DNA from: Algoriphagus lutimaris
GTDB taxonomy: Bacteria; Bacteroidota; Bacteroidia; Cytophagales; Cyclobacteriaceae
Assembly (NCBI RefSeq): GCF_017051705.1
Contig: NZ_JAFIDJ010000001.1
Location: 744,001-808,000 of the forward strand
Direction of reading: 5' to 3'
DNA length: 64,000 bases
Shown: positions 2,986-21,284 of the stretch, in pieces
How the letters are laid out: every line of letters begins with the position of its first letter
How positions within the stretch are numbered: the stretch's first letter is position 1
The notes under the pieces: generated by a model
The model's input: only the letters and a program-made list of their open reading frames with translations
What the model was told of the DNA's origin: nothing
Databases searched by the model: none
Position numbers and translations under genes: made by a program

Positions 2986-3744
2986 TTAACTGAAGAGCGT
3001 AAGGATATAATAGAATAGAGAAGGGCAAAGTAAACAGCCTACCCCTGTATAAAAGGTAGCTGTAACTGCTCCGTAAGGCACTAATTTCGGATCAGTTGCT
3101 GCAAGTCCAGCAGCCACCCCACTGGAAGTACCCATGATCCCACCATAGGCCATCGCTGATCCTGGAGATTCCAGCCCTATTTTTTTAGCCAGTATTGGGG
3201 TGAAAATAGTTACCGCAATGGTCTTTACTACTCCTGCTGCAATGCTCAGAGCAATAACTTCCGAACTTGCCCCAAGCGCCGCACCTGTTACTGGTCCTAC
3301 TATATAAGTACAGGCACCTGCTCCAATCGTGCACAAACTGACGGCATCTCGATACCCCCAAATCCAAGCGATTGCTACTCCGGAAACAAAAAAGATCAGG
3401 ATTCCGAAAAGCAAAGAAACCAATCCTAATATCCCTGACTTTTTAACCAAAAGAAAACTTGCTCCCATAGCCGTGGCTACTATCGCAAAGTCACGAAACA
3501 TGGAGCCACCCAAAATCCCAACTCCTTTGAAAATTTCAATATCTGCGATACCTTTTGAACCATCTGTAAACACACCTCCTATATATCCTAGAACCAAACC
3601 TAAAAAAATAGCGATGGCAGAACCAGGTATTCTTGAGTTTAGGAATTTCTTTGAAAATTGATCGGATAAAAAAGCTAGGATTCCGACCACCAGGAAGCCA
3701 ACTATCAAAGCATTTTTATCGATCACTTTTAGAAGTTCTTCCAT
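2986..3744 (-). CDS. madM: Malonate transporter subunit MadM
   Basis: The 252-residue protein is almost entirely hydrophobic, with about eight to ten membrane segments and glycine- and alanine-rich stretches (GTSSGVAAGLAATDPKLVPYGA near residue 205, CTIGAGACTYIVGPVTGAALG near 140). Length and composition match MadM, the larger subunit of the two-component MadLM malonate:sodium symporter. The gene starts 4 bases after the end of the MadL-like gene, and MadM is always found beside MadL in known systems. It lies downstream of a malonyl-CoA synthetase-like gene, so imported malonate would be activated directly. The substrate is inferred from family and context. Confidence 0.82.
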   Translation of the reverse strand: MEELLKVIDKNALIVGFLVVGILAFLSDQFSKKFLNSRIPGSAIAIFLGLVLGYIGGVFTDGSKGIADIEIFKGVGILGGSMFRDFAIVATAMGASFLLVKKSGILGLVSLLFGILIFFVSGVAIAWIWGYRDAVSLCTIGAGACTYIVGPVTGAALGASSEVIALSIAAGVVKTIAVTIFTPILAKKIGLESPGSAMAYGGIMGTSSGVAAGLAATDPKLVPYGAVTATFYTGVGCLLCPSLFYYILTLFS

Positions 3745-7559: not shown

Positions 7560-8474
7560 ATGAAAATCGTATTTTTTACCCAAAGTAATTGGTGCATTCC
7601 AACCATTCAACATTTCAAAGATATTTACGAAGTTGTAGGTGTAGTTTCAAAAACTAATCATCCTAATTCAAATGAATTTTTGCTTGAATATTTGAAAGGA
7701 GAGGATATCCCCGTTTTTAATTGGCAAAGTTCTGATTTGGAATCCTTGTCATCCAAGCTTTTGGAACTTCAAGTAGATGTGGGTATCAGTTTTGGTTTCT
7801 CTTATAAAATTCCTGCGAGTGTATTTAAAAGTATAAAAGAGGGGGTATTAAATGTGCATTTTGGAAAACTACCGGAGTTTGCTGGACCTGACCCTTTGTT
7901 TTGGGTGATCAAGAATGAAGAGAAAGTAGTAACGATTAGCGTCCATAAAATAAATCAGAAGTGGGATTCCGGAGAATTATTGGTTGAGTTTCCTATTCCT
8001 GTTTTTCCAGGAGAACCTTATGGTTTATTAGCATCTCGACTTTCTGTTTCTTTTCCAAGTAAACTGGAATCCTACTTTTCCGGTCAAATTCAATTTGATC
8101 GAAAGCCCATCGAAGAAAACCTTGAGCCTAAGTCTAAGCCTACTGACGAGATATTAACTATAGATTGGAAAAAGCAGAGAGCAGATGAGGTGGAGGCTTT
8201 GGTAAATGCATCAAATCCTTCTTATGCTGGAGCCATCACTAGTTTTAGAGGTAATCCAATTAAAATCTTGGAAGTAAGTCCTGCTGATGTAAATATTACC
8301 GGAATTTTTGCACCAGGCTCCATAGTTTATGCTGATCCCAATTACGGGATATTCGTTCTATGTGCAGACATGAAGTATTTAAGAATAAATATTTTACAGT
8401 TAGAAGGCACTATAATTTCTGGACAAAAATTAGCGGCAATGGGAGTGAATACCTATGAAAAATTTGGTGTTTAG
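7560..8474 (+). CDS. Formyltransferase-family protein (methionyl-tRNA/sugar formyltransferase-like)
   Basis: A 304-residue protein with the formyltransferase fold. The N-terminal Rossmann part starts MKIVFFTQS, the catalytic segment NVHFGKLPEFAGPDP (about residues 98-112) supplies the Asn and His of the N-x-H pair, and WDSGELL (about 137) supplies the Asp. A C-terminal domain follows. The classical SLLP motif of Fmt is changed to GKLP and the N-terminus is divergent, so I doubt it is the housekeeping Fmt. These enzymes move a formyl group from 10-formyltetrahydrofolate to an amino group on Met-tRNA or on an amino sugar. It precedes the tail-collar and adhesin genes on the same strand, after a 184-base spacer, so a role in modifying a surface glycan or the neighbouring proteins is possible but unproven. 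Confidence 0.72.
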   Translation: MKIVFFTQSNWCIPTIQHFKDIYEVVGVVSKTNHPNSNEFLLEYLKGEDIPVFNWQSSDLESLSSKLLELQVDVGISFGFSYKIPASVFKSIKEGVLNVHFGKLPEFAGPDPLFWVIKNEEKVVTISVHKINQKWDSGELLVEFPIPVFPGEPYGLLASRLSVSFPSKLESYFSGQIQFDRKPIEENLEPKSKPTDEILTIDWKKQRADEVEALVNASNPSYAGAITSFRGNPIKILEVSPADVNITGIFAPGSIVYADPNYGIFVLCADMKYLRINILQLEGTIISGQKLAAMGVNTYEKFGV

Positions 8475-8622
8475 ACTGTCTTTACCAGTATGATGTATAA
8501 TTTTTTAATTAATAGTTGAATCGTAACACAATAAATAAGATATTAGCTAATGTATTAACTTTTACGTTATTGAATATTTTTGGGATTGCCAATTTTTTTT
8601 CTGATTTTTCTTAAGAATTGAG

Positions 8623-8656
8623 GTTAATATTTTTAATTGAAGTTAATATTTTTAAT
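8623..8656 (+). repeat. Short tandem repeat upstream of the Tat-signal gene
   Basis: The 15-base string GTTAATATTTTTAAT occurs at 8623-8637 and again at 8642-8656, a 19-base period ending just before the ATG at 8659. It could be a regulator site, part of the leader, or simply low-complexity AT sequence. Confidence 0.5.
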
Positions 8657-8658
8657 AA

Positions 8659-9414
8659 ATGGATGTTAGGAGAAGGAAGTTTGTACAAAAAGTCTCGTTA
8701 GTTTTTGGAGCTGTTTCTATTCCTGGATTAAGTTGGGGTATGGGATCCAAGGAAGTTGTAAAAGATACAAAGTCCATTATCCATGTAGGATTAAAGACGT
8801 TGAAGTTTTTTAAGGGAGGAGATTTAGAGTCTAACCAATCCTTGGAGTCAGGACTTACGGTACTTACCCATGTAAGGAATTTTAATTTTTCGGAATTTGG
8901 ATCAAAAAAGATGCTTGATGCTTTATTGTATGGAGGTAATGCAGAGTTAATTGCCAATGAACCAGAATCTTCTGATCTCCCGTGGGTGAATTCCAATTTG
9001 GATGGGAACCCCGAGTTTGTAAAAGACTATCTGATCACGAATAGAATTGGAAAAAAAGTGGGGATTCTAGGTATCGATTTTGAAAAATCCTCTAGAAATA
9101 TAGACGAGACTATTCGATTTGTAAATAAAAAGGCAGACTTTTTAAAGCAGGACTTAGGATGCGAGCAAGTCTATTGCTTATTGACAGATCCAAAGTTAAA
9201 AGATTCTAATAGTTCATGGGAAGGTGTGCTTTCCAAGAGTGATCAAGTGGATGTTTTCTTTGCAACCTGTGCTTCTGCGATAACCAATAATTTGTGGGTT
9301 TTTCCAAACTTAAAAGGAAGACAGACTTTATTAAGTATTCAATCTGAAAGAGAAGAAAATAACTCTGAAATAGAATTGAAAGAAAGTGTAATCAATACCT
9401 TTAAAAAGGATTAA
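8659..9414 (+). CDS. Tat-signal protein resembling a catalytically dead 5'-nucleotidase/metallophosphatase
   Basis: The 251-residue protein begins MDVRRRKFVQKVSL, a twin-arginine-type signal followed by a hydrophobic stretch to about residue 24. The part from about 105 to 215 resembles the metallophosphatase domain of secreted UshA-like 5'-nucleotidases: LPWVNSNLD, then GKKVGILGIDF, LKQDLGCEQVYCLL and VDVFFATCAS. These correspond to FPFINSNY, IKIGVFGVGI, LKKDEKCDFVICLSH and IDLIIGGHTHT. The metal ligands of the family (the D-x-H, G-N-H-D/E and G-H-x-H motifs) are absent, and the protein is about half the usual length. The resemblance is from memory of the family and needs a profile search. 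It lies 65 bases before the first tail-collar gene, on the same strand. Confidence 0.5.
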   Translation: MDVRRRKFVQKVSLVFGAVSIPGLSWGMGSKEVVKDTKSIIHVGLKTLKFFKGGDLESNQSLESGLTVLTHVRNFNFSEFGSKKMLDALLYGGNAELIANEPESSDLPWVNSNLDGNPEFVKDYLITNRIGKKVGILGIDFEKSSRNIDETIRFVNKKADFLKQDLGCEQVYCLLTDPKLKDSNSSWEGVLSKSDQVDVFFATCASAITNNLWVFPNLKGRQTLLSIQSEREENNSEIELKESVINTFKKD

Positions 9415-9479
9415 GAATTTGGATTTTTTCCGATTTAAAATACTAAGAATAAATTTTCATTCATTAAACAATTTTTAAT

Positions 9480-10022
9480 ATGGAACCGACTATAGGGGAA
9501 ATCAGACTATTTGCTGGGAATTTTGCTCCAAGATCATGGTCCTTTTGTAACGGTCAATTATTGGCAATTGCACAGAATCAAGCTTTGTTTTCAATTTTAG
9601 GAACTATTTATGGTGGCGACGGTAGAACCACTTTTGCATTACCTGATTTGAGGGGTAGAGCACCGATTAGCCCTGGTCAAGGCCCTGGTTTATCTTCTGT
9701 CAGTCAGGGGCAAAGAGGTGGAGTTAATTCTGTGAATTTGACCATACAAAATCTGCCGAATCATAACCATACCTTAAATGTTCAAAATGCTGCTGGTACA
9801 AGTGCTTCCCCAGCCCTTAAGGTGTCCGCTAATGCACAGGTACAACTTGAAAGAGGCGGGGATGTATTTAATGTAAATTCCTTTGGGCCTACCCCAAATG
9901 CCACAATGGGGGCTAACTCAATAGGATCTACAGGAGGGAGCATTCCTGTTTCTGTACAAAATCCTTTTTTAGGCATCAATTATATAATTTGTTTATATGG
10001 CATATTTCCTTCTAGGAATTAA
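9480..10022 (+). CDS. Phage tail collar domain protein (microcystin-dependent protein family), copy 1
   Basis: A 180-residue protein starting MEPTIGEIRLFAGNFAPRSW with the tail-collar core F.CNGQLL.I.QN.ALFSILGTIYGGDGRTTFALPDLRGRAPI (residues about 22-64). A Gly/Ser/Asn-rich middle with QNLPNHNH (about 90) follows, then the conserved end NPFLGINYIICLYGIFPSRN. This is the length and layout of the MdpB-like family, which shares the collar domain of phage short tail fibres. There is no signal peptide. It is first of three tandem paralogues. No other phage genes are nearby, so this is not a prophage. The biological role of this family in bacteria is poorly known. Confidence 0.9.
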   Translation: MEPTIGEIRLFAGNFAPRSWSFCNGQLLAIAQNQALFSILGTIYGGDGRTTFALPDLRGRAPISPGQGPGLSSVSQGQRGGVNSVNLTIQNLPNHNHTLNVQNAAGTSASPALKVSANAQVQLERGGDVFNVNSFGPTPNATMGANSIGSTGGSIPVSVQNPFLGINYIICLYGIFPSRN

Positions 10023-10054
10023 ACTTGAATCGCACCTTTAAAATAATTATACAA

Positions 10055-10072
10055 AAACTTAAATTTTTAGAA
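10055..10072 (+). repeat. Leader sequence duplicated before tail-collar copies 2 and 3
   Basis: The 18 bases AAACTTAAATTTTTAGAA lie directly before the start codon of copy 2 (10055-10072) and recur at 10643-10660 before copy 3. This suggests the leader was duplicated with the gene, or that it is a shared translation-initiation or regulatory sequence. Copy 1 has only a loosely similar AT-rich leader. Confidence 0.6.
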
Positions 10073-10073
10073 T

Positions 10074-10616
10074 ATGGAAGGAATGATAGGAGAGGTAAGA
10101 ATTTTCGCTGGAAATTTTCCTCCGAGATCTTGGGCTTTTTGCAATGGTCAATTATTAGCTATTGCTCAAAATTCCGCATTATTTTCGATTTTAGGCACCA
10201 TCTACGGTGGTGATGGAAGAACGACTTTTGCTTTACCGGATCTGAGAGGTAGAGCTGCAATTAGTCCAGGAACTGGTCCAGGGCTTCCAAATATCCCTCA
10301 AGGTTCAAGATCTGGATCGGAGCAAGTTACGTTAACGGTTCAAAACCTACCAAGCCACAACCACCAATTGAATGTCAGTAATGGAGCTGGAACAAGTGCT
10401 ACACCAGTAGGTAATTATCCTGCGGCATCCTCTGTTCAAGTGGAACGAGGAGCGGCACCACATGATGTCAATGCCTATGGAGCAAGTCCTACATCTACTA
10501 TGGCTTCAAATGCGATAGGGAATTCAGGAGGTAATATTCCATTCAATATTAGAAATCCCTATTTGGCAGCGAATTACATTATTTGCCTACAGGGGCTTTA
10601 CCCTTCAAGAAATTAA
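10074..10616 (+). CDS. Phage tail collar domain protein (microcystin-dependent protein family), copy 2
   Basis: 180 residues, colinear with copy 1. The start is MEGMIGEVRIFAGNFPPRSW, followed by the same collar core through GRTTFALPDLRGRAAI, then QNLPSHNHQL and the end NPYLAANYIICLQGLYPSRN. The variable stretch is about residues 95-150 (VGNYPAASS to YGASPTS), as expected if this part is an exposed tip. The gene lies 51 bases after copy 1 and 45 bases before copy 3, so the three are probably one transcript. Equal lengths suggest the proteins could build a hetero-oligomeric fibre; this is inference. Confidence 0.9.
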   Translation: MEGMIGEVRIFAGNFPPRSWAFCNGQLLAIAQNSALFSILGTIYGGDGRTTFALPDLRGRAAISPGTGPGLPNIPQGSRSGSEQVTLTVQNLPSHNHQLNVSNGAGTSATPVGNYPAASSVQVERGAAPHDVNAYGASPTSTMASNAIGNSGGNIPFNIRNPYLAANYIICLQGLYPSRN

Positions 10617-10661
10617 TAACTCTTAAAGTCATTTGAATCATTAAACTTAAATTTTTAGAAC

Positions 10662-11204
10662 ATGGAAGGTACAATAGGAGAAATCAGGATGTTTGGAGGG
10701 AATTTTGCCCCTAGAACTTGGGCGTTTTGCAATGGCCAACTCTTGCCTATATCTCAAAATACAGCATTATTTTCAATCATAGGAACCATTTATGGGGGAG
10801 ACGGAAGAACGACTTTTGCCTTGCCGGATTTAAGAGGTAGAACAGTGATTGGCCCTGGGGCGGGGCCCGGACTATCTGATGTTCGACAGGGAGCAAGAGG
10901 TGGGACTGAGTCAGTGACTCTTTCGACTCAAAATATGCCAAGCCATTCACACACTTTAAATGTGAGTAATGCTGCTGGAACAACCTCTTCACCTGCGAAC
11001 ACTTATTTAGCAAATTCTCAAGTTCAAATAGAGCGAGGAGGTGATACATTTGATGTCATGTCCTATGGATCTACAGCTAATAGTACCATGGGGGGGAGTG
11101 CAATTGGGAATTCTGGAGGAAGTATTCCAGTGAACACTCGAAACCCCTACTTAGGTATATATTATATCATTTGCCTTCAAGGAATATTTCCATCTAGAAA
11201 TTAA
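10662..11204 (+). CDS. Phage tail collar domain protein (microcystin-dependent protein family), copy 3
   Basis: 180 residues again. The start is MEGTIGEIRMFGGNFAPRTW, with the collar core through GRTTFALPDLRGRTVIGPG, QNMPSHSHTL in place of QNLPxHNH, and the end NPYLGIYYIICLQGIFPSRN. It is last of the triplet. A hairpin (11212-11237) follows directly, and after 68 bases the giant surface protein gene begins. All three copies keep the same conserved blocks and vary in the middle, which argues that all three are functional and not decaying. Confidence 0.9.
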   Translation: MEGTIGEIRMFGGNFAPRTWAFCNGQLLPISQNTALFSIIGTIYGGDGRTTFALPDLRGRTVIGPGAGPGLSDVRQGARGGTESVTLSTQNMPSHSHTLNVSNAAGTTSSPANTYLANSQVQIERGGDTFDVMSYGSTANSTMGGSAIGNSGGSIPVNTRNPYLGIYYIICLQGIFPSRN

Positions 11205-11211
11205 ATAGCTG

Positions 11212-11243
11212 CCGGGTAGACAGGGATGTTTACCCGGTATTTA
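11212..11243 (+). terminator. Hairpin between tail-collar copy 3 and the giant adhesin gene
   Basis: A 7-bp stem (CCGGGTA at 11212-11218 with TACCCGG at 11231-11237) is followed by TATTTATTTA. The T tract is interrupted, so it may be a weak terminator or attenuator reducing read-through from the collar genes into the adhesin gene. Confidence 0.5.
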
Positions 11244-11272
11244 TTTAAAAGAAAAGTTAACACCTCTATACT

Positions 11273-14200
11273 ATGAATACTTTTACTGCTCGATATTTAC
11301 TTTTACTCCCTTTCTTGATAGGGATTCATATTTTTAGTCAAGCCCAGACCACCGTTACTTTTGACGAAATTACTACTGCCTCCCATCTTTCCTTAAATGG
11401 AACAAATACTTATGATAATTCAGGGGTCAGGTTTCAAATCTTTTCTGGATCCAATAGCAATGCGAATGTAAGTTCCACTGACAATGGTTTTAATGGTACC
11501 AAAGCACTCGATGATACTAATTTAACTATAGGGGGTGTTACCGGTTGGAAAATCACCAAGGTGGATGCCTCTGATTTTCAATTCATCAGCATTTGGTTGC
11601 AAAATGGCTGTAATGATTGTTCTGCATCTGGTACTGTCAAAGCTTACAAGGATGGAAGCCAGGTTGGGTCAACCGTAAATGTGAATTTTGACAGTGGGAC
11701 AAATGGTGTTAAAAATTTTGTTGCTAATCCTGATTTTTATAGTGTTGATGAGATTAGAATTGAAGGCGTTGATCTCTATGTCTATATAGATAATTTCACT
11801 TTTGGAAGTCCTTACACACCAGTGGACGGAGATCCTCCTGTAGTTTCAAGTATTTCCCTCGTGGGTACTCCTTTAACTACAGCTACCTCAGTAAATTACA
11901 CAGTTACTTTTTCGAAGAATGCCAAAAATGTTACCTCAGATGATTTTGATTTAACTACTGTTGGTACTATTGGTACGGTAGGTGCTGTGACGGGTTCCGG
12001 GACTACTTATAACGTAGCTGTAAATGGAATTGATGGAGAAGGAACTATTCGGTTGGATCTAAAAGCAGGTACGGATATCGCGAATGATGATGATGTCACA
12101 GGAACTCCTGCCTTTACTTTAGGCCAAATTCATAACGTCGGAGAGTGTTTTGTTGAAACTTTTGAAACTGAAACCGATGAGTCTACTACTTTTAGTGGTA
12201 ATGGATTAACCTTTACTTTGGGCACTGGACTGAAGATTGAGAAAAGATTAGGTTTCGGTGCAGGTCCTTCCAATGGGTATATTGCCAATAATTTTACGGC
12301 GGGTACTTTTTCAGTTTCCAGTGGGACGGAGTTTACCATGAAAACCATTGATTTGTTTCTTTCAGACCTAAGCAATGGAAACAACCCCACTGGAACAGGG
12401 ACTTTGGTCATCACCGGTAAAAAAGGAGGAGTTGATCAATTTACCATTACCAAAACAACAGGTTTCCCAACAAATACTGCAATCAATAACGGATTTTTCA
12501 CCCTTGATTTTGCTACCGAGGGACCCGCAAATTATAGGGATACGAATGTGGATGAGTTGGTATTTACCATCAGTGATGGATTTATTGAACTTGCCATTGA
12601 TAATATGAATTTCTGTGAGGCCGCTCCTGATGTTGATTCAGATGCGCCTGCTGTGAACAGTATTTTAAAGGTGGGTAATCCAATTTCTACTGCTACCTCG
12701 GTAGATTTCCAAGTTACTTTTGATGAAAATGCAAATAATGTAACCATTGATGATTTTGATTTGATTAGAACAGGAACGGCCACAGGTGCCATCACTGGTA
12801 TAAGTGGTTCAGGTTCTGTTTATACTTTAAGTGTGACAGGTATCTCTGGGGAAGGTTCTATTCAGGTAAAACTCTTGGCAGGAACCGATATCGCCGATGC
12901 CTTAGGAAATACACCTCCATTTGAATATGTCAATGGTGAGTTGCATTTGGTAGGTGCATGTTATATTGAGAATTTTGAAACTTTCTTGGACGGAGTTACT
13001 TCCTTTACCTCAAATGGGGTAGACTTTACCTTGGGAGGAAATTGGGCTGTGAATGTCAGAAATGGCTTTGGGATTAATAGTTCAGATGTATTTGTCGAAA
13101 ATACAGGAGCCGGAACTTATACGCTAAGTAACAGTGAACCTGTTAGATTTAGTAAAATCGCATTCTTTTTATCTTCTGAGGCTGTTTCCAATCCAAATCC
13201 TACGGATGATGGTACGCTTACCATTAGAGGAATTAGAAATGGAGGGACTGTTTATACCATCACCAAATCCTCTGGATTCCCTACTGACTTTTCTTCAAAT
13301 AATGGATTCTTCTATATTGATTTCTCTACTGAAGGGGGTGCAGACAATTCCGGAACTTTTGTGGATGGGTTAGAAATTGAAATGGGAGGTAGTTTTGTCT
13401 ATTTAGCTTTGGATAATCTTCAGTTCTGTTCTGATTATTCTCCACCTACTGTTTCATTGTCAGTTACTCCTGTCTCTAAATTAGAAGGTACAACTACTCC
13501 GAATACGATAACGGCAACGCTTTCTCAAACATCCACAGAAAATGTAACTGTTAATTTAGGGTTCAGTGGAACTGCAACGGGAAGTGGAGTGGATTATTTT
13601 CTAAGTGCCGCCTCAATAACTATTAATGCCGGAAATACATCAGGGTCTATTACGTTAACCAATGTGCCAGATGTGCTATACGAGAGAGACGAGACAGTAA
13701 TCATAGATGTTACAGGGGTCATCAACGCAGATGAAGACGGAACTCAGCAGGTGACTTATACCATCACAGATGACGACCCTCAACCAACTGCTACCTTGGA
13801 GGTATTGGGTATTTATAATCCAATTACCGATGAAAGTGGTGGTCAAGCTTATGTTCGGGCAATTATAGATGCTGTTGCAGGAACGACGGTAACGGTACCT
13901 CTATCATTTAGTGGAACAGCATCAGGAGGTGGTACGGATTATAGCATTACCGGCTCTACCATCACGCTTTCAGCTGGAGAAATCATGGATAGTATCCGTG
14001 TAACTTCTCAATTTGATGGCATTGAGGAAGGGAATGAGACGATTATCATAGATATGGGTACACCTACGAATGCTACTGAGGGAACTCCAAATCAAGTGAC
14101 CATTACGATTATCGATGAAGATGCGACTCCGCCAACTGGTTACTCAGTTTCCATCGATCAGAGTGTTATTAATAGCGTAAATGAAACTGCAGCTAGTTTT

Positions 14201-17200
14201 ACATTCGCTGGTGCTGAAGTGGGAGCTATCTACAATTATGAATTCACAAGTTCTGGAGGAGGAACTGCTGTTTCAGGATCTGGTACAATAGCTACTGCTT
14301 CAGATCAAATCACAGGAATTGATTTAAGTGGGCTGGGCGATGGTCTCATCACCTTATCAGTATCTTTAGAGGATGGCTTTGGTAATGTAGGCTCTCCGGC
14401 CACGGATACAAAAAATAAGGATACTGTTGTACCAGCTGGATATGCTGTAGCCATTGACTTATTGGGAGAATCTCAGATAAATGTGATCAATGAGACCATC
14501 ATAGAATTCACTGGAACAGGATTGGAAGTAGGGGCAACCTTGAATTACTCATTTACAAGCAATGGAGGAGGTACTCCGGTATCTGGAACCGAAGTTGTTT
14601 CTACTGCCAATCAGACATTTAATAATGGAGGAGCAGGTTATGACCTTTTAGGATTATCAGATGGGATAGTAACCCTCACAATTTACTTGGTAGATCCTGC
14701 AGGAAATCAGGGAGCAAATGCTTCTAATACTGCAGATAAGGATTCGAATCCACCTACAGCGCCATCTACCCCAGATCTTGTCGCTGGCAGTGATTCGGGT
14801 ATTAGTGATACTGATAATATCACCAATGATGTAACTCCAACGTTTGTAGGGACAGCTTTACCAAATTCTACTATTACTCTGAATAGTAGTTTGGATGGGA
14901 ATGTGGGTACAATTCCTGCTGATGGATCGGGCAACTGGTCAATTACTTCTTCGACTTTGTCTTCAGGAATTCATACCATTACTGCTACTGCTACTGACCT
15001 TGCTGGCAATACAAGTCCTTCTTCTCCAGGACTACTAGTAACTATTGATATCTTGGCTCCAACTCCAATTTTGATAAATGGTTTAGCACTCCAATTGGAT
15101 GTGAATGGTAATACGCCAACGATTTTACCAACTGACCTATTAGCTAGCCCGATCACAGATGATTACTCTTCATCCGGAAATATTCAATTAGCATTAGATA
15201 AAACTGATTTTAATTGTTCCGATGTTGGAATTAACAATGTTACGGTAACCGCAACGGATCAAGCTGGGAATTCTGATTTCGCAGTCACAAATGTTTTAGT
15301 TCAAGATTTGATCGGACCAACAATTTTGGCGAAGCCATCTATTACTTTAAATGTGAGTGCATTTGGAACTGTAAGTCTGACCCCTGCAATGGTCGATGAA
15401 GGCTCTTCAGATGCCTGTGGAATCTTATCACAAGTATTGAGCAAAACTATTTTTGATAGAAATGATGAAGGAATAAATAATATTACCTACACCGTTACTG
15501 ATGTAAATGGCAATCCATCCCAAGTAAATGTAGAAGTGACTATTGCGGTGGTTCCGAAAGTATTGAATATTACCGTGGATGCAGGTCAGAGCAAAGTGTA
15601 TGGCGATGCGAATCCTGTGTATACCTTCACTGCCACAGGCTTTGAAGCCGGAGATGATGAGAACATCCTTACGGGATCTTTATCTAGAGCCTCTGGGGAG
15701 AATGTCGGAACATATGCTATTCAATTAGGAACCCTTGATGCGGGTCCAAACTATTCCATCAACTTTACTCCTGCGAATTTTGAGATCACTCCTGCTACAT
15801 TGGAGGTCACTGCTTTTGCAGGACAAAGAAAGGTCTATGGCAATGTGGATCCGACCTTTGCCTTTTTTGCCTTAGGTCTTAAAAATGGGGATTCAGGTTC
15901 CATATTCTCAGGTCAATTAACTAGATCGCCAGGCGAGGATGTGGGCTTCTATGCGATTAGCCAAGGAACTTTGAGTGCCGGAGACAACTATATCATCAAC
16001 TTTAACTCTTCAGATTTTGAAATCACACCTGCTACCTTGGATATCACAGCAGATGCTGGCCAGACCAAGCTTTATGGTGCAGCTGATCCAGTATTCACTT
16101 ATTCAGTGAGTGGACTGAAGAATGGGGATACAGAATCGGTCATCTCAGGGACTCTGACCAGAATAGCGGGCGAAGATGTGGGTACGTATGCGATTCAGCC
16201 AGGAACAATCGATGCAGGATCTAATTACACCATTAACTTCACCTCTGCAGACTTTGAAATCACTCTTGCAACCTTAGATATTACTGCCGAAGCCGGTCAG
16301 ACCAAGGTGTACGGAAATTCAGATCCAATATTTACCTATCAGGTATCCGGTTTACAAAATGGCGATACTGAGGCAGTCCTTAGTGGAGTACTGGCCAGAG
16401 CAGTCGGAGAAGATGTGGGTACCTATGCAATCAATCAAGGTACCCTGGATGCGGGTTCCAATTATACGATCAATTTTACTGGAGCTGATTTTGAGATCAC
16501 TCCTGCTACCTTGGATATTACTGCCGATGCCGGTCAGACCAAGGTGTATGGAGATGCTGATCCGGTATTCACTTATACCGTGAATGGACTCAAAAACGGG
16601 GATACCGAAGCTGTAATTACAGGTGCTCTAATTAGAATAGCCGGAGAGGACGTAGGAAATTATGCGATTCAACCAGGCACCATAGATGCAGGTTCAAACT
16701 ATACGATCAACTTTAACTCTTCAGATTTTGAAATCACACCTGCTACCTTGGATATCACAGCAGATGCTGGCCAGACCAAGGTATATGGTGAAGCTGATCC
16801 AGTATTCACGTATTCAGTGAGTGGATTGAAGAATGGGGATACAGAATCGGTTATCTCAGGGGCTCTGATCAGAATAGCGGGTGAAGATGTGGGACTGTAT
16901 GCGATTCAGCCAGGAACAATTGATGCAGGATCTAATTACACCATCAACTTCATCTCTGCAGACTTTGAGATTACATCTGCAACCTTGGATATTACTGCCG
17001 ATGCCGGTCAGACCAAGGTGTACGGAAATGCAGATCCAATATTCACCTACCAGGTATCCGGTTTACAAAATGGCGACACCGAGGCAGTCCTTAGTGGATT
17101 ATTGGCCAGAGCAGTAGGAGAAGATGTAGGAACCTATGCAATCAATCAAGGTACCCTGGATGCGGGCTCCAATTATACGATCAACTTTACCGGAGCTGAT

Positions 17201-19453
17201 TTCACTATTACGCCTCGAACGTTGAGTATTGTAGCTAAACCGAATCAGGCTAAAGTTTATGGCACTGCTGATCCAGTCTTTGCGTATACTGCTTCAAACT
17301 TTGGTAATGGAGACAATACCTCTGTATTGACAGGTGCATTGAGCAGAGTAGCAGGGGAGGATGTTGGATTGTATGCAATTACCTTGGGTAGTTTGGATGC
17401 AGGAAGCAACTATATCATTGACTTTACTTCAGCAGACTTTGAGATTGCTGAGAAAGTACTAGATGTGGTGGCAGATGCTGGACAAGGTAAAGTCTTTGGT
17501 ACAGCTGATCCGGTATTGACCTATCTGGTTTCTGGTTTTGAAAATGGAGATGATACAAGTGTTCTAACGGGTGCACTTGTAAGAGCCTCTGGTGAGAATG
17601 TGGGAAGCTATGCAATTAGTCTTGGCACCCTGGATGCAGGAAGCAACTATGCCATCAACTTTACAGGCGCAGACTTTACGATAAGCAAAGCAATGATCGT
17701 TGGAATTACCCTTGAAGATGGAAACTTTGTGTATGACGGCATTTCCAAGTCACTTTCAATAAGCGGAGTTGTTCCTTCTGGTACTGCTGTGACTTATACT
17801 AACAACAGCAGAACAGATGTAGGAAGTCAGGAAGTTACTGCTACCATTTCCGGTTCAAATTACAATTCGCTGGTGCTGACAGCAGATTTAACGATTTCAC
17901 CTGCTACGATTATTGGAATCACTCTCGACGATGGAAGCTTCGTGTATGATGGTACTTCTAAGTCCCTATCAATAAGTGGAGATCTTCCTACTGGAGCTGA
18001 TGTTACTTATACTAACAACAGTAGAACTGAAGTGGGAAGCCAGGAAGTAACGGTTACTATCAGTGGTTCAAACTATACTGCCTTTGACCTGACCGCCGAA
18101 TTGTCTATTACTCCTGCAACACTAGAAATAGTGGCAGATTCCGGACAAAGCAAACTGTATGGCGAATCTGATCCTGAGTTGACCTATTCTGTTGCTGGAT
18201 TTGGAGAAGGTGATGATGAAAGTATCTTGACAGGTACTCTTGAAAGAACTGCAGGTGAAAGTGTAGGTATGTACGAAATTCTTTTAGGGTCTCTCAATGC
18301 AGGTACCAATTACCTCATTGACTTTACAGGTGCAGAATTCGAGATTATCAGTGGTGATACCGATGGTGACGGAGTTCCAGATGAAGTAGAGGAAGAACAA
18401 GGAACGGATCCAGAAGATCCAATGGATTATCAAGATTTGGACGGGGATGGAGTTCCAGACTTTGTCGAAGATGAGCAGGGAACAGATCCTTCAAGTTCCG
18501 GAGATTACTTGGATACTGATGGAGATAAAGTTCCTGATTATGTAGAAGAGCAGCAAGGAACAGATCCGGATGATGCAGAGGACTTCCCAGATGAAGATGG
18601 AAATGGTATTCCTGATTATGTGGATGACAAAGCCGTAGTTGAATTTGTAGATCAGACGTTGGAAGCATTGTGGGGCACAGAAGTAGGAGATCTAAAAGTT
18701 CCAACAGAAGTGGTAGGAATCACTTCAGAAGGAGTGGTGGTCAACTTCCCTGTGATCTGGGATCTCAATGGATATGATCCATTGGTATCAGGTACCGTGA
18801 ATTATTTGGGAACGGTGGAATTACCAGATGGGGTGTTTAATCCTCAGGAACTTCAGCCTGTCTTGGAGCTTTCAGTACTAGCTAAGCCTGCTCCAACTGA
18901 TGTAACCTTAAGTGAAAATAGCTTCGTTGCAATTCCAGCTGTATTCTTCCAAGAGATAGGTGTGTTCACTGTGGTAGATCCTACTGATGATGTACATACT
19001 TTAAGCTTGCCTGAAGGGGTTCAGGACAACGATTACTTCGAAGTGATAGATGGTATTCTGTTCTGGAGCAGTGCAGGTAGAGCACAGGGTGAGACCCAAT
19101 TTACCATTACTCTTCAAGTAATAGACCGAGGAGGAAATGTATTTGAGAAATCCTTCCAGATCACAAGACAGAGAACTCCTCTAGGTCAGTTAGATGTTCC
19201 AAATACATTTACACCGAATAATGACGGAGTGAATGATACATGGGGAGTTCCTGCCTTGAGGTATTACCAAGGAGTGAGGATCTCTATCGTGGAAGTAGGA
19301 GGTAATAGGGTGTTCTATACTGAGAACCCAGATATCCGTTGGGATGGCACCTTCGATGGTAAAGAGTTACCTGTTGGAGCTTACTTCTGGATTATAGAAG
19401 TGGCAGAAACAGGTGAGGTGAGAAGAGGTGTATTGAACCTGTTAAAACAATAG
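11273..19453 (+). CDS. Giant multidomain surface protein with MBG repeats, TSP3 repeats and T9SS type B sorting domain
   Basis: 2726 residues with a signal peptide (1-25, ending FSQAQ). The order is: an unassigned beta-rich N-terminal domain (about 25-180); two alternations of an Ig-like domain and a jelly-roll-like domain (about 186-720); two Calx-beta domains (about 723-950); Ig-like domains (about 954-1425); nine MBG domains of exactly 79 residues (1431-2141); two 71-residue YDG-type repeats; a tenth MBG domain; an acidic TSP3-type calcium-binding region with DTDGDGVPD repeats (about 2361-2452); Ig and cadherin-like modules; and a C-terminal gliding-motility/T9SS type B domain beginning NTFTPNNDGVND. 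It should be exported by Sec, moved across the outer membrane by T9SS and displayed as an adhesin. A PorP/SprF gene follows, the usual partner of type B cargo. Confidence 0.92.
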   Translation: MNTFTARYLLLLPFLIGIHIFSQAQTTVTFDEITTASHLSLNGTNTYDNSGVRFQIFSGSNSNANVSSTDNGFNGTKALDDTNLTIGGVTGWKITKVDASDFQFISIWLQNGCNDCSASGTVKAYKDGSQVGSTVNVNFDSGTNGVKNFVANPDFYSVDEIRIEGVDLYVYIDNFTFGSPYTPVDGDPPVVSSISLVGTPLTTATSVNYTVTFSKNAKNVTSDDFDLTTVGTIGTVGAVTGSGTTYNVAVNGIDGEGTIRLDLKAGTDIANDDDVTGTPAFTLGQIHNVGECFVETFETETDESTTFSGNGLTFTLGTGLKIEKRLGFGAGPSNGYIANNFTAGTFSVSSGTEFTMKTIDLFLSDLSNGNNPTGTGTLVITGKKGGVDQFTITKTTGFPTNTAINNGFFTLDFATEGPANYRDTNVDELVFTISDGFIELAIDNMNFCEAAPDVDSDAPAVNSILKVGNPISTATSVDFQVTFDENANNVTIDDFDLIRTGTATGAITGISGSGSVYTLSVTGISGEGSIQVKLLAGTDIADALGNTPPFEYVNGELHLVGACYIENFETFLDGVTSFTSNGVDFTLGGNWAVNVRNGFGINSSDVFVENTGAGTYTLSNSEPVRFSKIAFFLSSEAVSNPNPTDDGTLTIRGIRNGGTVYTITKSSGFPTDFSSNNGFFYIDFSTEGGADNSGTFVDGLEIEMGGSFVYLALDNLQFCSDYSPPTVSLSVTPVSKLEGTTTPNTITATLSQTSTENVTVNLGFSGTATGSGVDYFLSAASITINAGNTSGSITLTNVPDVLYERDETVIIDVTGVINADEDGTQQVTYTITDDDPQPTATLEVLGIYNPITDESGGQAYVRAIIDAVAGTTVTVPLSFSGTASGGGTDYSITGSTITLSAGEIMDSIRVTSQFDGIEEGNETIIIDMGTPTNATEGTPNQVTITIIDEDATPPTGYSVSIDQSVINSVNETAASFTFAGAEVGAIYNYEFTSSGGGTAVSGSGTIATASDQITGIDLSGLGDGLITLSVSLEDGFGNVGSPATDTKNKDTVVPAGYAVAIDLLGESQINVINETIIEFTGTGLEVGATLNYSFTSNGGGTPVSGTEVVSTANQTFNNGGAGYDLLGLSDGIVTLTIYLVDPAGNQGANASNTADKDSNPPTAPSTPDLVAGSDSGISDTDNITNDVTPTFVGTALPNSTITLNSSLDGNVGTIPADGSGNWSITSSTLSSGIHTITATATDLAGNTSPSSPGLLVTIDILAPTPILINGLALQLDVNGNTPTILPTDLLASPITDDYSSSGNIQLALDKTDFNCSDVGINNVTVTATDQAGNSDFAVTNVLVQDLIGPTILAKPSITLNVSAFGTVSLTPAMVDEGSSDACGILSQVLSKTIFDRNDEGINNITYTVTDVNGNPSQVNVEVTIAVVPKVLNITVDAGQSKVYGDANPVYTFTATGFEAGDDENILTGSLSRASGENVGTYAIQLGTLDAGPNYSINFTPANFEITPATLEVTAFAGQRKVYGNVDPTFAFFALGLKNGDSGSIFSGQLTRSPGEDVGFYAISQGTLSAGDNYIINFNSSDFEITPATLDITADAGQTKLYGAADPVFTYSVSGLKNGDTESVISGTLTRIAGEDVGTYAIQPGTIDAGSNYTINFTSADFEITLATLDITAEAGQTKVYGNSDPIFTYQVSGLQNGDTEAVLSGVLARAVGEDVGTYAINQGTLDAGSNYTINFTGADFEITPATLDITADAGQTKVYGDADPVFTYTVNGLKNGDTEAVITGALIRIAGEDVGNYAIQPGTIDAGSNYTINFNSSDFEITPATLDITADAGQTKVYGEADPVFTYSVSGLKNGDTESVISGALIRIAGEDVGLYAIQPGTIDAGSNYTINFISADFEITSATLDITADAGQTKVYGNADPIFTYQVSGLQNGDTEAVLSGLLARAVGEDVGTYAINQGTLDAGSNYTINFTGADFTITPRTLSIVAKPNQAKVYGTADPVFAYTASNFGNGDNTSVLTGALSRVAGEDVGLYAITLGSLDAGSNYIIDFTSADFEIAEKVLDVVADAGQGKVFGTADPVLTYLVSGFENGDDTSVLTGALVRASGENVGSYAISLGTLDAGSNYAINFTGADFTISKAMIVGITLEDGNFVYDGISKSLSISGVVPSGTAVTYTNNSRTDVGSQEVTATISGSNYNSLVLTADLTISPATIIGITLDDGSFVYDGTSKSLSISGDLPTGADVTYTNNSRTEVGSQEVTVTISGSNYTAFDLTAELSITPATLEIVADSGQSKLYGESDPELTYSVAGFGEGDDESILTGTLERTAGESVGMYEILLGSLNAGTNYLIDFTGAEFEIISGDTDGDGVPDEVEEEQGTDPEDPMDYQDLDGDGVPDFVEDEQGTDPSSSGDYLDTDGDKVPDYVEEQQGTDPDDAEDFPDEDGNGIPDYVDDKAVVEFVDQTLEALWGTEVGDLKVPTEVVGITSEGVVVNFPVIWDLNGYDPLVSGTVNYLGTVELPDGVFNPQELQPVLELSVLAKPAPTDVTLSENSFVAIPAVFFQEIGVFTVVDPTDDVHTLSLPEGVQDNDYFEVIDGILFWSSAGRAQGETQFTITLQVIDRGGNVFEKSFQITRQRTPLGQLDVPNTFTPNNDGVNDTWGVPALRYYQGVRISIVEVGGNRVFYTENPDIRWDGTFDGKELPVGAYFWIIEVAETGEVRRGVLNLLKQ
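15563..17695 (+). repeat. Tandem array of nine 237-base MBG-domain repeats with a 711-base higher-order duplication
   Basis: Nine consecutive units of 237 bases (79 codons) encode the pattern AGQ.KVYG.ADPVFTY, NGD, GEDVG.YAI, LDAGSNY.INF, FEITPAT. Units 3 and 4 (from 16037) and units 6 and 7 (from 16748) are far more alike in DNA than other pairs, exactly 711 bases apart. The near-identity begins in the last part of units 2 and 5 (15995 and 16706) and fades near 16490 and 17200. This indicates a recent three-unit duplication or gene conversion inside the array. Confidence 0.9.
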
Positions 19454-19468
19454 AATAAGACTGAATCT

Positions 19469-19507
19469 GGGTGACCGAGAAGCGAAAATCTTGGTTGCCC
19501 AATTTTT
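19469..19507 (+). terminator. Hairpin between the adhesin and PorP/SprF genes
   Basis: A 12-bp stem with some G-T pairs (19469-19480 with 19489-19500) and an 8-base loop is followed by AATTTTTAAA. It may act as a partial terminator that sets the ratio between cargo and PorP/SprF partner transcripts, or stabilise the adhesin mRNA. Confidence 0.5.
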
Positions 19508-19525
19508 AAACATTTCAATTTTGCA

Positions 19526-20488
19526 ATGAAAAAGAATATCAGAAATATCGCAATGGTTTTTTTAGTCCTTTCAGTAGCACTAACTGCAGAGGCTCAGTCG
19601 AGAAAACACATCTCCAATTTCAGCCATTTTCAAAGTTACTTCAACCCTGCATTGACAGGGTATGAAGGGAGTACAATCCGAGGTTTTGTAAGAAATCAAT
19701 GGTCAGGATTTGAAGGAGCTCCTAAGACTTATTTTATTTCTGCAGAGCTAGACTTTGGAGAATTGGCAGGAGAGGAAGATCCAGCATTGATGGGTAAGAA
19801 TGCAGTGTCGGCAAATATGTTATATGACACCTATGGAGCATTTAGAGAAACTGAATTATTGCTTTCATATGCTTCTAGGGTCAGATTGACCGAACGCCAT
19901 AACTTACGATTGGGGGTTGGATTAAACTACCAAAGTATAAGACTAGATGGGAATTCTTTGACAACTGAAGAACAAAATGACCCCACCTTGGGACAATATA
20001 TTGGTCAGTTTTCAAATATGAATGTGGTAGACTTTAATCTAGGTATCGCTTTGACCCATGCCAAATATTATGTTTCCTACGGAATGCATAGAGTAGCAGG
20101 AGGTAAGATTACTTCTGGAGATGAGTTTATGGATGGCTACCCAACAGCGATCATGGTTCAGGCTGGTTATAGAGAATCTATAAGCGAAAATTTAGGTGTA
20201 ATCTTTAACGCATTTTACAGGAGCCAGAAAGACATAAAAGATAATCTGGAATTTAATTTGAAAGCCCTTTTGATGGATAGGGTATGGGTTGGAATGGGCC
20301 ATAGAATAAACTATGCTACCAATGCACAATTAGGAATCTTGACCAACAGGCTTAGAATCGGTTATCTATATGAGTTTTCAACAGGAGGAGCATATAATTT
20401 GCCAGGCAACACTCATGAGTTCACTGCTGTATTTAACCTATTCCGTGACAACAACAGAAGGTCTGACAATCAAGTCCTGATTTGGTAA
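19526..20488 (+). CDS. PorP/SprF family type IX secretion membrane protein
   Basis: 320 residues with a signal peptide (hydrophobic 9-22, cleavage after AEAQ). The family's N-terminal signature FSHFQSYFNPALTGYEG is followed by RGFVRNQW. The body is an outer-membrane beta-barrel pattern with a terminal FRDNNRRSDNQVLIW. In Flavobacterium johnsoniae, SprF lies downstream of and is needed for delivery of the adhesin SprB; many type B cargo genes have such a partner. Here it follows the 2726-residue type B cargo by 72 bases, so it most likely serves that protein. Confidence 0.92.
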   Translation: MKKNIRNIAMVFLVLSVALTAEAQSRKHISNFSHFQSYFNPALTGYEGSTIRGFVRNQWSGFEGAPKTYFISAELDFGELAGEEDPALMGKNAVSANMLYDTYGAFRETELLLSYASRVRLTERHNLRLGVGLNYQSIRLDGNSLTTEEQNDPTLGQYIGQFSNMNVVDFNLGIALTHAKYYVSYGMHRVAGGKITSGDEFMDGYPTAIMVQAGYRESISENLGVIFNAFYRSQKDIKDNLEFNLKALLMDRVWVGMGHRINYATNAQLGILTNRLRIGYLYEFSTGGAYNLPGNTHEFTAVFNLFRDNNRRSDNQVLIW

Positions 20489-20505: not shown

Positions 20506-20542
20506 AAAAAAATAGGCCCAATAATTTTGGGCCTATTTTTTT
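20506..20542. terminator. Bidirectional terminator between PorP/SprF and GH25 genes
   Basis: A nearly perfect inverted repeat (AAAAAAATAGGCCCAA at 20506-20521 against TTGGGCCTATTTTTTT) works on both strands. The end of the GH25 reading frame, including its stop at 20533-20535, is inside the stem. It serves two convergent genes. Confidence 0.88.
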
Positions 20543-21284
20543 ACCACTTCAAATGGTTTGGAAGGATTGTATAAATCATGATCTACTTGTCCAACAGCAC
20601 CTTCAATAGTACCTCTTTCAGATCTTTGCCAGATTAACCAACCTTTTTCATTCCAAGTTTTTGGTATAGTTGGCTGCTTGACTCCATATTCTGCAATCCA
20701 TAAATTATAATTTGAGAAATTTTCATGTGTTAAATACAGATCTCCAAAGACGTGATTGGTATAAATAATGGGCTTTACTCCAAGTTTAGATTCTACATAG
20801 TTTAGCCATTTTAACACTTCGGATTGAAAAGTTGTAGTATTGATTTCGCCTTTTATTCCAGCTTGTTCTAGATCCAAAACTGGAGGCATATCCCCGGACC
20901 ATAATCAATAATATTGACAAAAAGTTCTGCTTGTTCTAAAGCGTCTGCATCCGAGGTGAAAAAATGATAGGAACCATGTGCTAACCCATTTTGATGAGCT
21001 CCAATTTTGTTTTCGGCATAATCAGGATCTTTAAAAGTTTTTCCTTCCGAAGCTTTATCATAAACAAATGTGATCTTTGCTTCTTTTACCTTTGACCAGT
21101 TGACATCACCTTGGAAATGGGATACGTCTATGCCTAATATCTGTGTAGTTTTTTTGACTTCAATACTATCTGATACTTGTATAGGCTTTGGAATATTCTC
21201 TTGGACAGTATTCTGTTCTTTTGAACAAGACCATACCAATAGTGAAATTAAAACCAAAGAAGTTGTTCTATTAAGGTAATTCAT
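20533..21284 (-). pseudogene. Glycoside hydrolase family 25 lysozyme lipoprotein, frameshifted
   Basis: Two overlapping minus-strand frames make up one GH25 protein. The first part (21284-20868) has a lipoprotein signal (LISLLVWSC) and GIDVSHFQGDVNW, KASEG and GSYHFF. The second (20889-20533) continues with PPVLDLEQ, KPIIYTN, NLWIAEYG, WLIWQRS and VDHDLYN. Catalytic Asp and Glu are present across the two parts. The frame changes near 20890, by the GGGG run after YGP; one base appears to be missing. A sequencing error in the short homopolymer is possible, otherwise this is a recent knockout. The intact enzyme would cleave peptidoglycan. Its start codon overlaps the stop of the upstream membrane gene (ATGA), so they were coupled. 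Confidence 0.85.

Follow-up and report, generated by a model that had tools for sequence, protein, structure and literature searches.

Phage tail collar proteins beside a formyltransferase and a giant adhesin in Algoriphagus lutimaris: one form of a candidate bacterial surface cassette

A tail collar domain is found in the receptor-binding head of the T4 short tail fibre, gp12, in which an H-x-H motif on the trimer axis binds zinc. Of the bacterial collar proteins that we found in print, within the open-access literature, the nearest is Rhizobium RhiB, encoded in the rhiABC(D) operon (COG4675, “microcystin-dependent protein”), which passages of two papers describe as carrying a tail collar domain and as linked to plant interaction (PMC13133039, PMC6969944). 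Here we analyse a 64,000-nucleotide stretch of the Algoriphagus lutimaris genome (assembly GCF_017051705.1, contig NZ_JAFIDJ010000001.1, positions 744,001 to 808,000; hereafter the window), in which seven plus-strand genes at 7560-20488 encode, in order, a formyltransferase (FT), a protein with a twin-arginine translocation (Tat) signal, three collar proteins, a giant surface protein sorted by the type IX secretion system (T9SS) and a PorP/SprF outer-membrane protein. An earlier sequence-only reading had counted six genes here and taken them for one surface locus; all seven open reading frames (ORFs) agree with the coordinates in Table 1, and the grouping proves real and broader than was then supposed, as the FT subfamily adjoins collar genes in 11 of its 11 occurrences in 247 genomes spread over the phylum Bacteroidota. 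The locus may be one form of a widespread surface cassette.

Collar genes and their two acyltransferases

The linkage runs from the enzymes to the collars. Profiles of the FT subfamily and of a GNAT acetyltransferase subfamily were both built from collar-adjacent genes. In the 247 genomes the FT profile gave 11 matches of at least 199 bits (the next scored 157), all of them 24-1235 bp from collar genes; one is the window's own and one lies on the other strand. In a sample of 58 relatives there were 8 FT-subfamily matches of at least 82 bits (others 60 or less), and all 8 are within 1.5 kb of collars. The sequence-only reading had staked its grouping in part on FT genes not occurring apart from collars; such cases were looked for in both samples, the window being included in each, and none was found. 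The GNAT profile gave seven matches of at least 118 bits in the 247 genomes (the next scored 66), and all seven either overlap collar genes or lie at most 1259 bp away. The two enzymes also do not share a locus: among 162 loci, 50 have only FT, 39 only GNAT, none both and 73 neither, a pattern for which shared ancestry accounts in part. Collar relatives are encoded by 158 stretches of named genomes, and the best 80 of these 158 were fetched and all examined. Within three genes of the collars, FT was present in 33 and GNAT in none of the 50 Bacteroidota loci (two of which are Ignavibacteria by title), and GNAT in 27 and FT in none of the 30 loci from other phyla. One genome (G260) holds two separate cassettes (L211 and L212), one with FT and one with GNAT.

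Gene order recurs as well. Frequent orders in Bacteroidota are FT-collars-giant and collars-Peripla_BP_6 protein-FT-giant; outside the phylum a frequent order is giant-three collars-small protein-GNAT-DUF6916 gene. Eight plasmid records were viewed of 71 with a match; a Paenibacillus plasmid record carries GNAT and three collars with a 4.8-kb Ig-like gene on the opposite strand. Three collars and GNAT are also present in Deinococcus ficus, together with a 2.7-kb gene and one for a substrate-binding protein, and in Aminobacter and Comamonas, where the accompanying genes measure 12.5 and 11.8 kb, respectively; in Spirosoma the three collars come with FT and a gene of 4.5 kb; and in an unannotated Pseudoalteromonas record GNAT was found by scan. 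The FT of the window scores 102.9 bits against the methionyl-tRNA formyltransferase equivalog (cut-off 201.5), and another match lies elsewhere in the genome (C1:1418906). Two further kinds of neighbour were seen by collars. A 2-oxoglutarate-Fe(II) oxygenase, an Asp/Asn beta-hydroxylase and a small HEAGH-motif protein recur there in differing combinations (L048, L052, L053, L055, L074, L080), which hints at protein modification. A Peripla_BP_6 protein recurs too, often between collars and FT (22 ORFs; L045, L053, L058, L078, L131 and others); four inspected by eye have no signal, and the Deinococcus one has a Tat-like N-terminus.

The collars themselves resemble the head of a phage fibre. Each of the three matches Collar PF07484 at 98-104 bits (cut-off 24), and the second and third are 66 and 72% identical to the first. 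An AlphaFold model of collar 3 has a mean predicted local distance difference test score (pLDDT) of 69 and a predicted template modelling score of 0.44; a monomer model of this quality may be what an obligate trimer would give. With it, Foldseek placed T4 gp12 entries at the top (1ocy over 190 columns, E 1.4e-4, root-mean-square deviation 18.8), and in a profile alignment the conserved H-x-H of the collars falls on the H-K-H of gp12 (1ocy). Of 363 collars at least 150 aa long, 338 have a P-x-H-x-H motif. The sequence-only reading held that the collars looked domesticated, and they do look bacterial: in the whole 4.7-Mb genome no Collar match other than these three reaches E 0.001, nor does any match to Phage_sheath_1 or Phage_base_V, and no tail or capsid family was matched among ten window proteins scanned around the locus. 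A prophage or tailocin remnant in this genome was rejected on these grounds.

Tandem collars differ in history between the two types of cassette. Exactly three collars are present in 36 of 39 GNAT loci, and in a tree of three-collar loci (a quick method, with 25 of 148 inner branches starred) 5 changes over 93 rows suffice for GNAT positions 1-3, the minimum possible being 2; the ordered trio of GNAT cassettes thus looks like a set of old paralogue lines. FT-type three-collar loci need 15 changes over 41 rows in the same tree, and all 12 Algoriphagus rows together with one L074 row make up a starred 13-row set, so that the window's trio seems to have arisen within its own lineage. One Bacteroidota ORF of 547 aa (L178) contains three whole collar domains, a fusion that fits a single assembled unit. 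Other arrangements were also seen: collar genes in tandem runs of 12 and 13 (L035 and L067), and a 577-aa Sec-signal protein (L194:9379-11112, minus strand) in which a partial collar domain is joined to repeated NxAIG-type motifs.

Export signals, the degenerate nucleotidase and the giant

The window's collars have no signal, and relatives that do have one sort differently by enzyme. Collars were found in 57 of the 247 phylum genomes, and the loci taken from them exclude seven f35 genomes (G081, G169, G176, G259, G263, G283, G298). Among the resulting 59 loci, 13 have collars with Tat- or Sec-like N-termini, called partly by eye: Tat-like in L179, L180, L181, L182, L184 and L221, and Sec-like in L189, L190, L194, L195, L213, L228 and L229. 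FT or GNAT occurs in none of these 13 loci vs 18 of the 46 others (p 0.006, a statistic that, like those of the near/far comparisons below, ignores shared ancestry). At L198, the one exception by script, the upstream ORF extension was judged spurious and the collar start placed at MDGTIGE, and the locus was counted as signal-less. The split is in keeping with an enzyme whose target is the native N-terminus of collars that lack a signal, although lineage effects are possible.

If the collars leave the cell without a signal of their own, a partner could provide one. The sequence-only reading had called the protein encoded between FT and the collars a Tat-signal pseudoenzyme and a dead nucleotidase, and its relatives do identify it as a degenerate 5'-nucleotidase. 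The protein (8659-9414) has no Pfam or NCBIfam family match of its own. A five-row profile reached a nucleotidase at E 0.0019, and a longer relative in L206 matches CD73 and bacterial 5'-nucleotidases at E values down to 8e-8; of five other relatives scanned, one gave a sub-cut-off Metallophos match and four gave none. Nucleotidase-like proteins of this kind occur in 8 of the 58 relatives, and all 8 lie directly upstream of collars, within 250 bp. When 14 members were aligned, six columns were invariant, and three of these come from the Tat-signal R-R-x-F (R5, R6 and F8, each 14/14). At the positions that we take to be those of the nucleotidase metal-binding motifs, P0002, judged by eye, no longer has the motifs, and L206, L201 and L082 keep only part of them. 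The alignments thus point to a degenerate 5'-nucleotidase whose active site has decayed. A structure model was too poor to be used (pLDDT 45). As expected of a Tat substrate, the protein has a twin-arginine motif together with a hydrophobic stretch, and TatC is encoded in the genome (209.8 bits).

Tat-like proteins are more generally commoner near collars than far from them: by a home-made rule, applied to genes called by a simple ORF rule, 47 of 781 near ORFs have Tat-like N-termini vs 9 of 744 far ORFs. Besides the nucleotidase relatives, these neighbours include two families, one of 194 aa in Aquimarina and its relatives and one of 221-223 aa in L188 and L212, as well as DUF6916 in a Tat version and proteins of 197-202 aa in L048 and L052; the Tat signal of L048, like the label “unrelated” for Tat partners as a whole, was judged by eye. 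We infer that collars could be exported by hitch-hiking on such a partner.

The third component is the giant. Its domains include ten stretches of MBG_2 and two of Calx-beta as well as Big_13 and CHU_C; TSP3_bac is matched at 25.2 bits (cut-off 25) and the type B T9SS model TIGR04131 at 54.5 bits (cut-off 35), and the genome encodes a T9SS (SprA_N, 521 bits). Large surface-type proteins are enriched beside collars. Of the near genes in the phylum sample, 36 of 330 are T9SS-sorted ORFs, vs 11 of 345 of the far genes (p 1e-4; the two sorting-domain models were built from collar-adjacent giants, so that the near/far comparison is fair mainly in this sample), and ORFs of at least 1000 aa make up 26 of 330 vs 6 of 345 (p 2e-4). 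One or the other lies within three genes of the collars in 41 of the 59 loci, and 20 of the 30 loci outside Bacteroidota have an ORF of at least 1000 aa. The partners named by the sequence-only reading did not all prove part of the cassette: FT and the Tat protein are conserved with collars, whereas SprF tracks the giant's sorting type. With an SprF model built from eight type B-linked loci, SprF adjoins 10 of 14 type B cargos vs 0 of 74 type A, and it was rejected as a member of the collar cassette. The collar-side giants outside Bacteroidota (L029, L032, L036, L040, L042 and others) show a feature of their own: 17 of 20 have Cys in the last six residues, often as ..SCPx or ..ACPx, and the consensus of ten of them has an internal PIP-x-LG hydrophobic stretch near the N-terminus that resembles an XrtH site. 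These giants may follow an undescribed sorting arrangement.

A possible mechanism and its rivals

The reading that we prefer, a tentative one whose chance we would put somewhat short of even, is that of a domesticated phage receptor-binding head, capped with an acyl group, exported with a Tat partner and working beside an adhesin. At the core would stand one to three collars, heads of a phage short tail fibre that no longer belong to a phage. Collars probably trimerise around their His-x-His motifs, and where three differentiated paralogues are present they would form a hetero-oligomer. Collars without a signal would be modified by a dedicated acyltransferase (FT here, GNAT elsewhere), the simplest form being a cap put on their N-terminus in the cytoplasm. 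Once folded, the collars would exit by Tat, carried by the adjoining Tat-signal partner: here the carrier would be the dead 5'-nucleotidase, retained for its signal and fold. The giant, exported by the T9SS with SprF, would serve as stalk or matrix, and beside it the heads would bind a surface, a polymer or a neighbouring cell. A collar fibre acting jointly with the adhesin had already been suggested by the sequence-only reading, as an inference from adjacency. In its strongest form, this would be a new class of surface device, in which a stand-alone phage receptor-binding head, formylated or acetylated post-translationally at its N-terminus by an acyltransferase of its own, hitch-hikes in folded form through Tat on unrelated, often dead-enzyme carriers and works with a giant adhesin that is exported by whichever secretion system the host possesses; so specific a claim is rather doubtful.

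Several observations weigh against the capped, Tat-exported head. Collars without either enzyme are common, as shown by the 73 loci of 162 that have neither and by the 57 phylum genomes with collars; Aliiroseovarius has one collar and no adjoining acyltransferase, another Deinococcus has three collars and no annotated GNAT, and FT is only loosely linked in L034 and L048, more than 4 kb from collars. A small Tat-like neighbour lies within three genes in only 34 of the 162 loci. When the signal test is made by the script rule only, in place of the by-eye calls otherwise used, it weakens to 1/15 vs 17/44 (p 0.024), and the neglect of shared ancestry noted above tells in the same direction. FT triplets are largely lineage-specific duplicates, so that a fixed heterotrimer is unsupported for the window itself; the model of collar 3 is weak; and the two hairpins of the locus suggest separate transcripts.

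A somewhat less likely alternative is that FT or GNAT has its target not in the collars but, for instance, in the giant or in a sugar at the surface, and that the locus is a co-regulated cell-surface island with no common chemistry. Formyl_trans domains occur in sugar formyltransferases too, and FT also matches the ArnA model; hydroxylases, methyltransferases and the Peripla_BP_6 protein likewise cluster by collars. Nor do start residues separate the two types completely: M-E-G is the start of the FT type vs M-S/A-E-P of the GNAT type, but exceptions exist, collars in five FT loci (L133, L134, L200, L202, L204) starting MSTEPF, which also counts against the preferred reading. Start-residue class was rejected as a clean marker of FT vs GNAT, the exceptions being too many. 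An island without common chemistry is, however, harder to square with both enzyme subfamilies lying solely beside collars in the 247 genomes, or with the lack of FT and GNAT in loci with signal-bearing collars. No glycosyltransferase or nucleotide-sugar enzyme was seen in 30 recurring neighbour clusters (by eye; ten were scanned), the one glycosyltransferase encountered being 8 kb off in Deinococcus ficus.

A second alternative, that collars are supplied in trans as the receptor-binding tips of some contractile injection system, tailocin or prophage encoded elsewhere, is improbable. It draws on the enrichment of Phage_sheath_1 in collar genomes (30/57 vs 31/190 others, p 1.3e-7), a further point against the preferred reading; without eleven f35 genomes, most with short collar matches, sheath is present in 21 of 46 collar genomes. 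Expression in Acaryochloris marina bears on both readings. Section 6 of one paper lists the genes concerned without comment by the authors there: in strain MBIC11017 under low far-red light the collars AM1_3688-3690 are among the top 35 induced genes (log2 3.2-4.0), as are AM1_3686 (a putative acetyltransferase), AM1_3684 and AM1_3687 (likewise log2 3.2-4.0), and orthologues of 3686-3689 are induced in strain MU13 (log2 2.6-3.4), whose induced list also holds a sheath and a baseplate gene (PMC11633204). The joint induction of collars and acetyltransferase is a point for the preferred reading, the sheath and baseplate gene a point for the present one. Given the sheath enrichment, some collars may serve contractile systems. 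The window genome, though, is 99.98% complete and lacks sheath and baseplate-V matches, and no sheath match was found in 5 of the 11 FT genomes or 4 of the 7 GNAT genomes. Phage collars, moreover, are less than 40% identical in all 30 rows listed, vs up to 66% for bacterial relatives, and are mostly single-copy (428 places in 388 phage records). Least probable of all, and very unlikely, is that collars are decoys, heads set free to cover the phage receptors of kin cells and thereby shield these from phage: the fold is indeed that of a phage receptor-binding head, but the enriched companions of collars are large surface-type proteins.

If the capped, Tat-exported head is correct, a cassette that is found in several phyla, with “tail fiber protein” as its usual annotation, would constitute an independent surface system. 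It would bring with it a post-translational protein formyltransferase and, for pseudoenzymes, a function as Tat carriers, and it would show that phage receptor-binding heads have repeatedly been taken up for adhesion. In the open-access literature we found no paper on DUF6916 and none joining tail collar with formyltransferase and adhesin, with adhesin and GNAT, or with type IX secretion. Within that literature the cassette is new, while known protein families account for each of its parts, by membership or by descent.

Layout of the locus and comparison with described systems

The features of the locus are collected in Table 1. The hairpins that the sequence-only reading had placed near 11212 and 19469 were recovered in the two gaps flanking the giant gene. 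Rfam found no riboswitch or RNA element. Beyond SprF, a glycosyl hydrolase 25 gene on the minus strand (20533-21284) consists of two overlapping ORFs, each with half of PF01183, which suggests a frameshift.

Table 1. Features of the collar locus, in window coordinates.
Feature	Position	Strand	Remark
FT of the collar-linked subfamily; Formyl_trans_N and Formyl_trans_C; N-x-H and D-x-G residues kept	7560..8474	+	Pfam/NCBIfam
Tat-signal protein descended from the 5'-nucleotidase N-terminal domain, without its metal ligands (dead nucleotidase); proposed Tat carrier/partner	8659..9414	+	
Collar protein 1, 180 aa, T4 gp12-like receptor-binding head, without signal peptide	9480..10022	+	
His-x-His motif, collar 1	9762..9770	+	aligned with T4 gp12 H-K-H
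Collar protein 2, 180 aa	10074..10616	+	
Collar protein 3, 180 aa, structure modelled	10662..11204	+	
His-x-His motif, equivalent place in collars 2 / 3	10356-10364 / 10944-10952	+	
Terminator-like hairpin, collar 3/giant gap	11210..11239	+	folding z -3.7
Giant surface protein, 2726 aa: Calx-beta, Big_13, 10 MBG_2, TSP3, type B T9SS sorting domain	11273..19453	+	
CHU_C / TIGR04131 type B sorting domain, residues 2641-2721 of giant	19193..19435	+	
Terminator-like hairpin, giant/SprF gap	19468..19501	+	folding z -3.4
PorP/SprF outer-membrane protein, partner of type B cargo	19526..20488	+	PorP_SprF 207 bits

Each component can be set against a described system. The giant has the CHU_C/TIGR04131 domain and adjoining SprF of a T9SS type B cargo with its PorP/SprF, and differs in that it adjoins collars and FT. 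The XrtH-processed “midcut” and tandem-95 repeat giants of Pseudomonadota are likewise comparable to the giant repeat proteins found by collars, since tand_rpt_95 is matched in 8 of 10; the midcut model and IPTL_CTERM, however, are each matched in only 1 of 10, and no T9SS sorting domain appears in the Pfam matches. Methionyl-tRNA formyltransferase and the sugar N-formyltransferases have the same two domains and active-site residues as the FT of the locus, which nevertheless belongs to a separate, collar-linked subfamily far under the fmt cut-off. In the case of the 5'-nucleotidases and metallophosphatases, the likeness comes through the L206 relative of the Tat protein, with its matches to CD73 and bacterial nucleotidases; the Tat protein itself corresponds to the N-terminal domain only and appears to have lost the metal ligands. 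AM1_3686 of Acaryochloris, co-induced with three collars, is a putative acetyltransferase by description. RhiB is, like the collars of the locus, a bacterial protein with a tail collar domain, but, compared by description only, it belongs to a quorum-sensing operon with RhiA, RhiC and RhiD, and neither an acyltransferase nor a giant adhesin is mentioned in the passages cited above. The receptor-binding domain of T4 gp12, finally, shares with the locus a collar domain, a fold match and an aligned His-x-His, whereas the collars of A. lutimaris, with no shaft, baseplate or sheath genes, are stand-alone tandem proteins of 180 aa encoded beside an acyltransferase.

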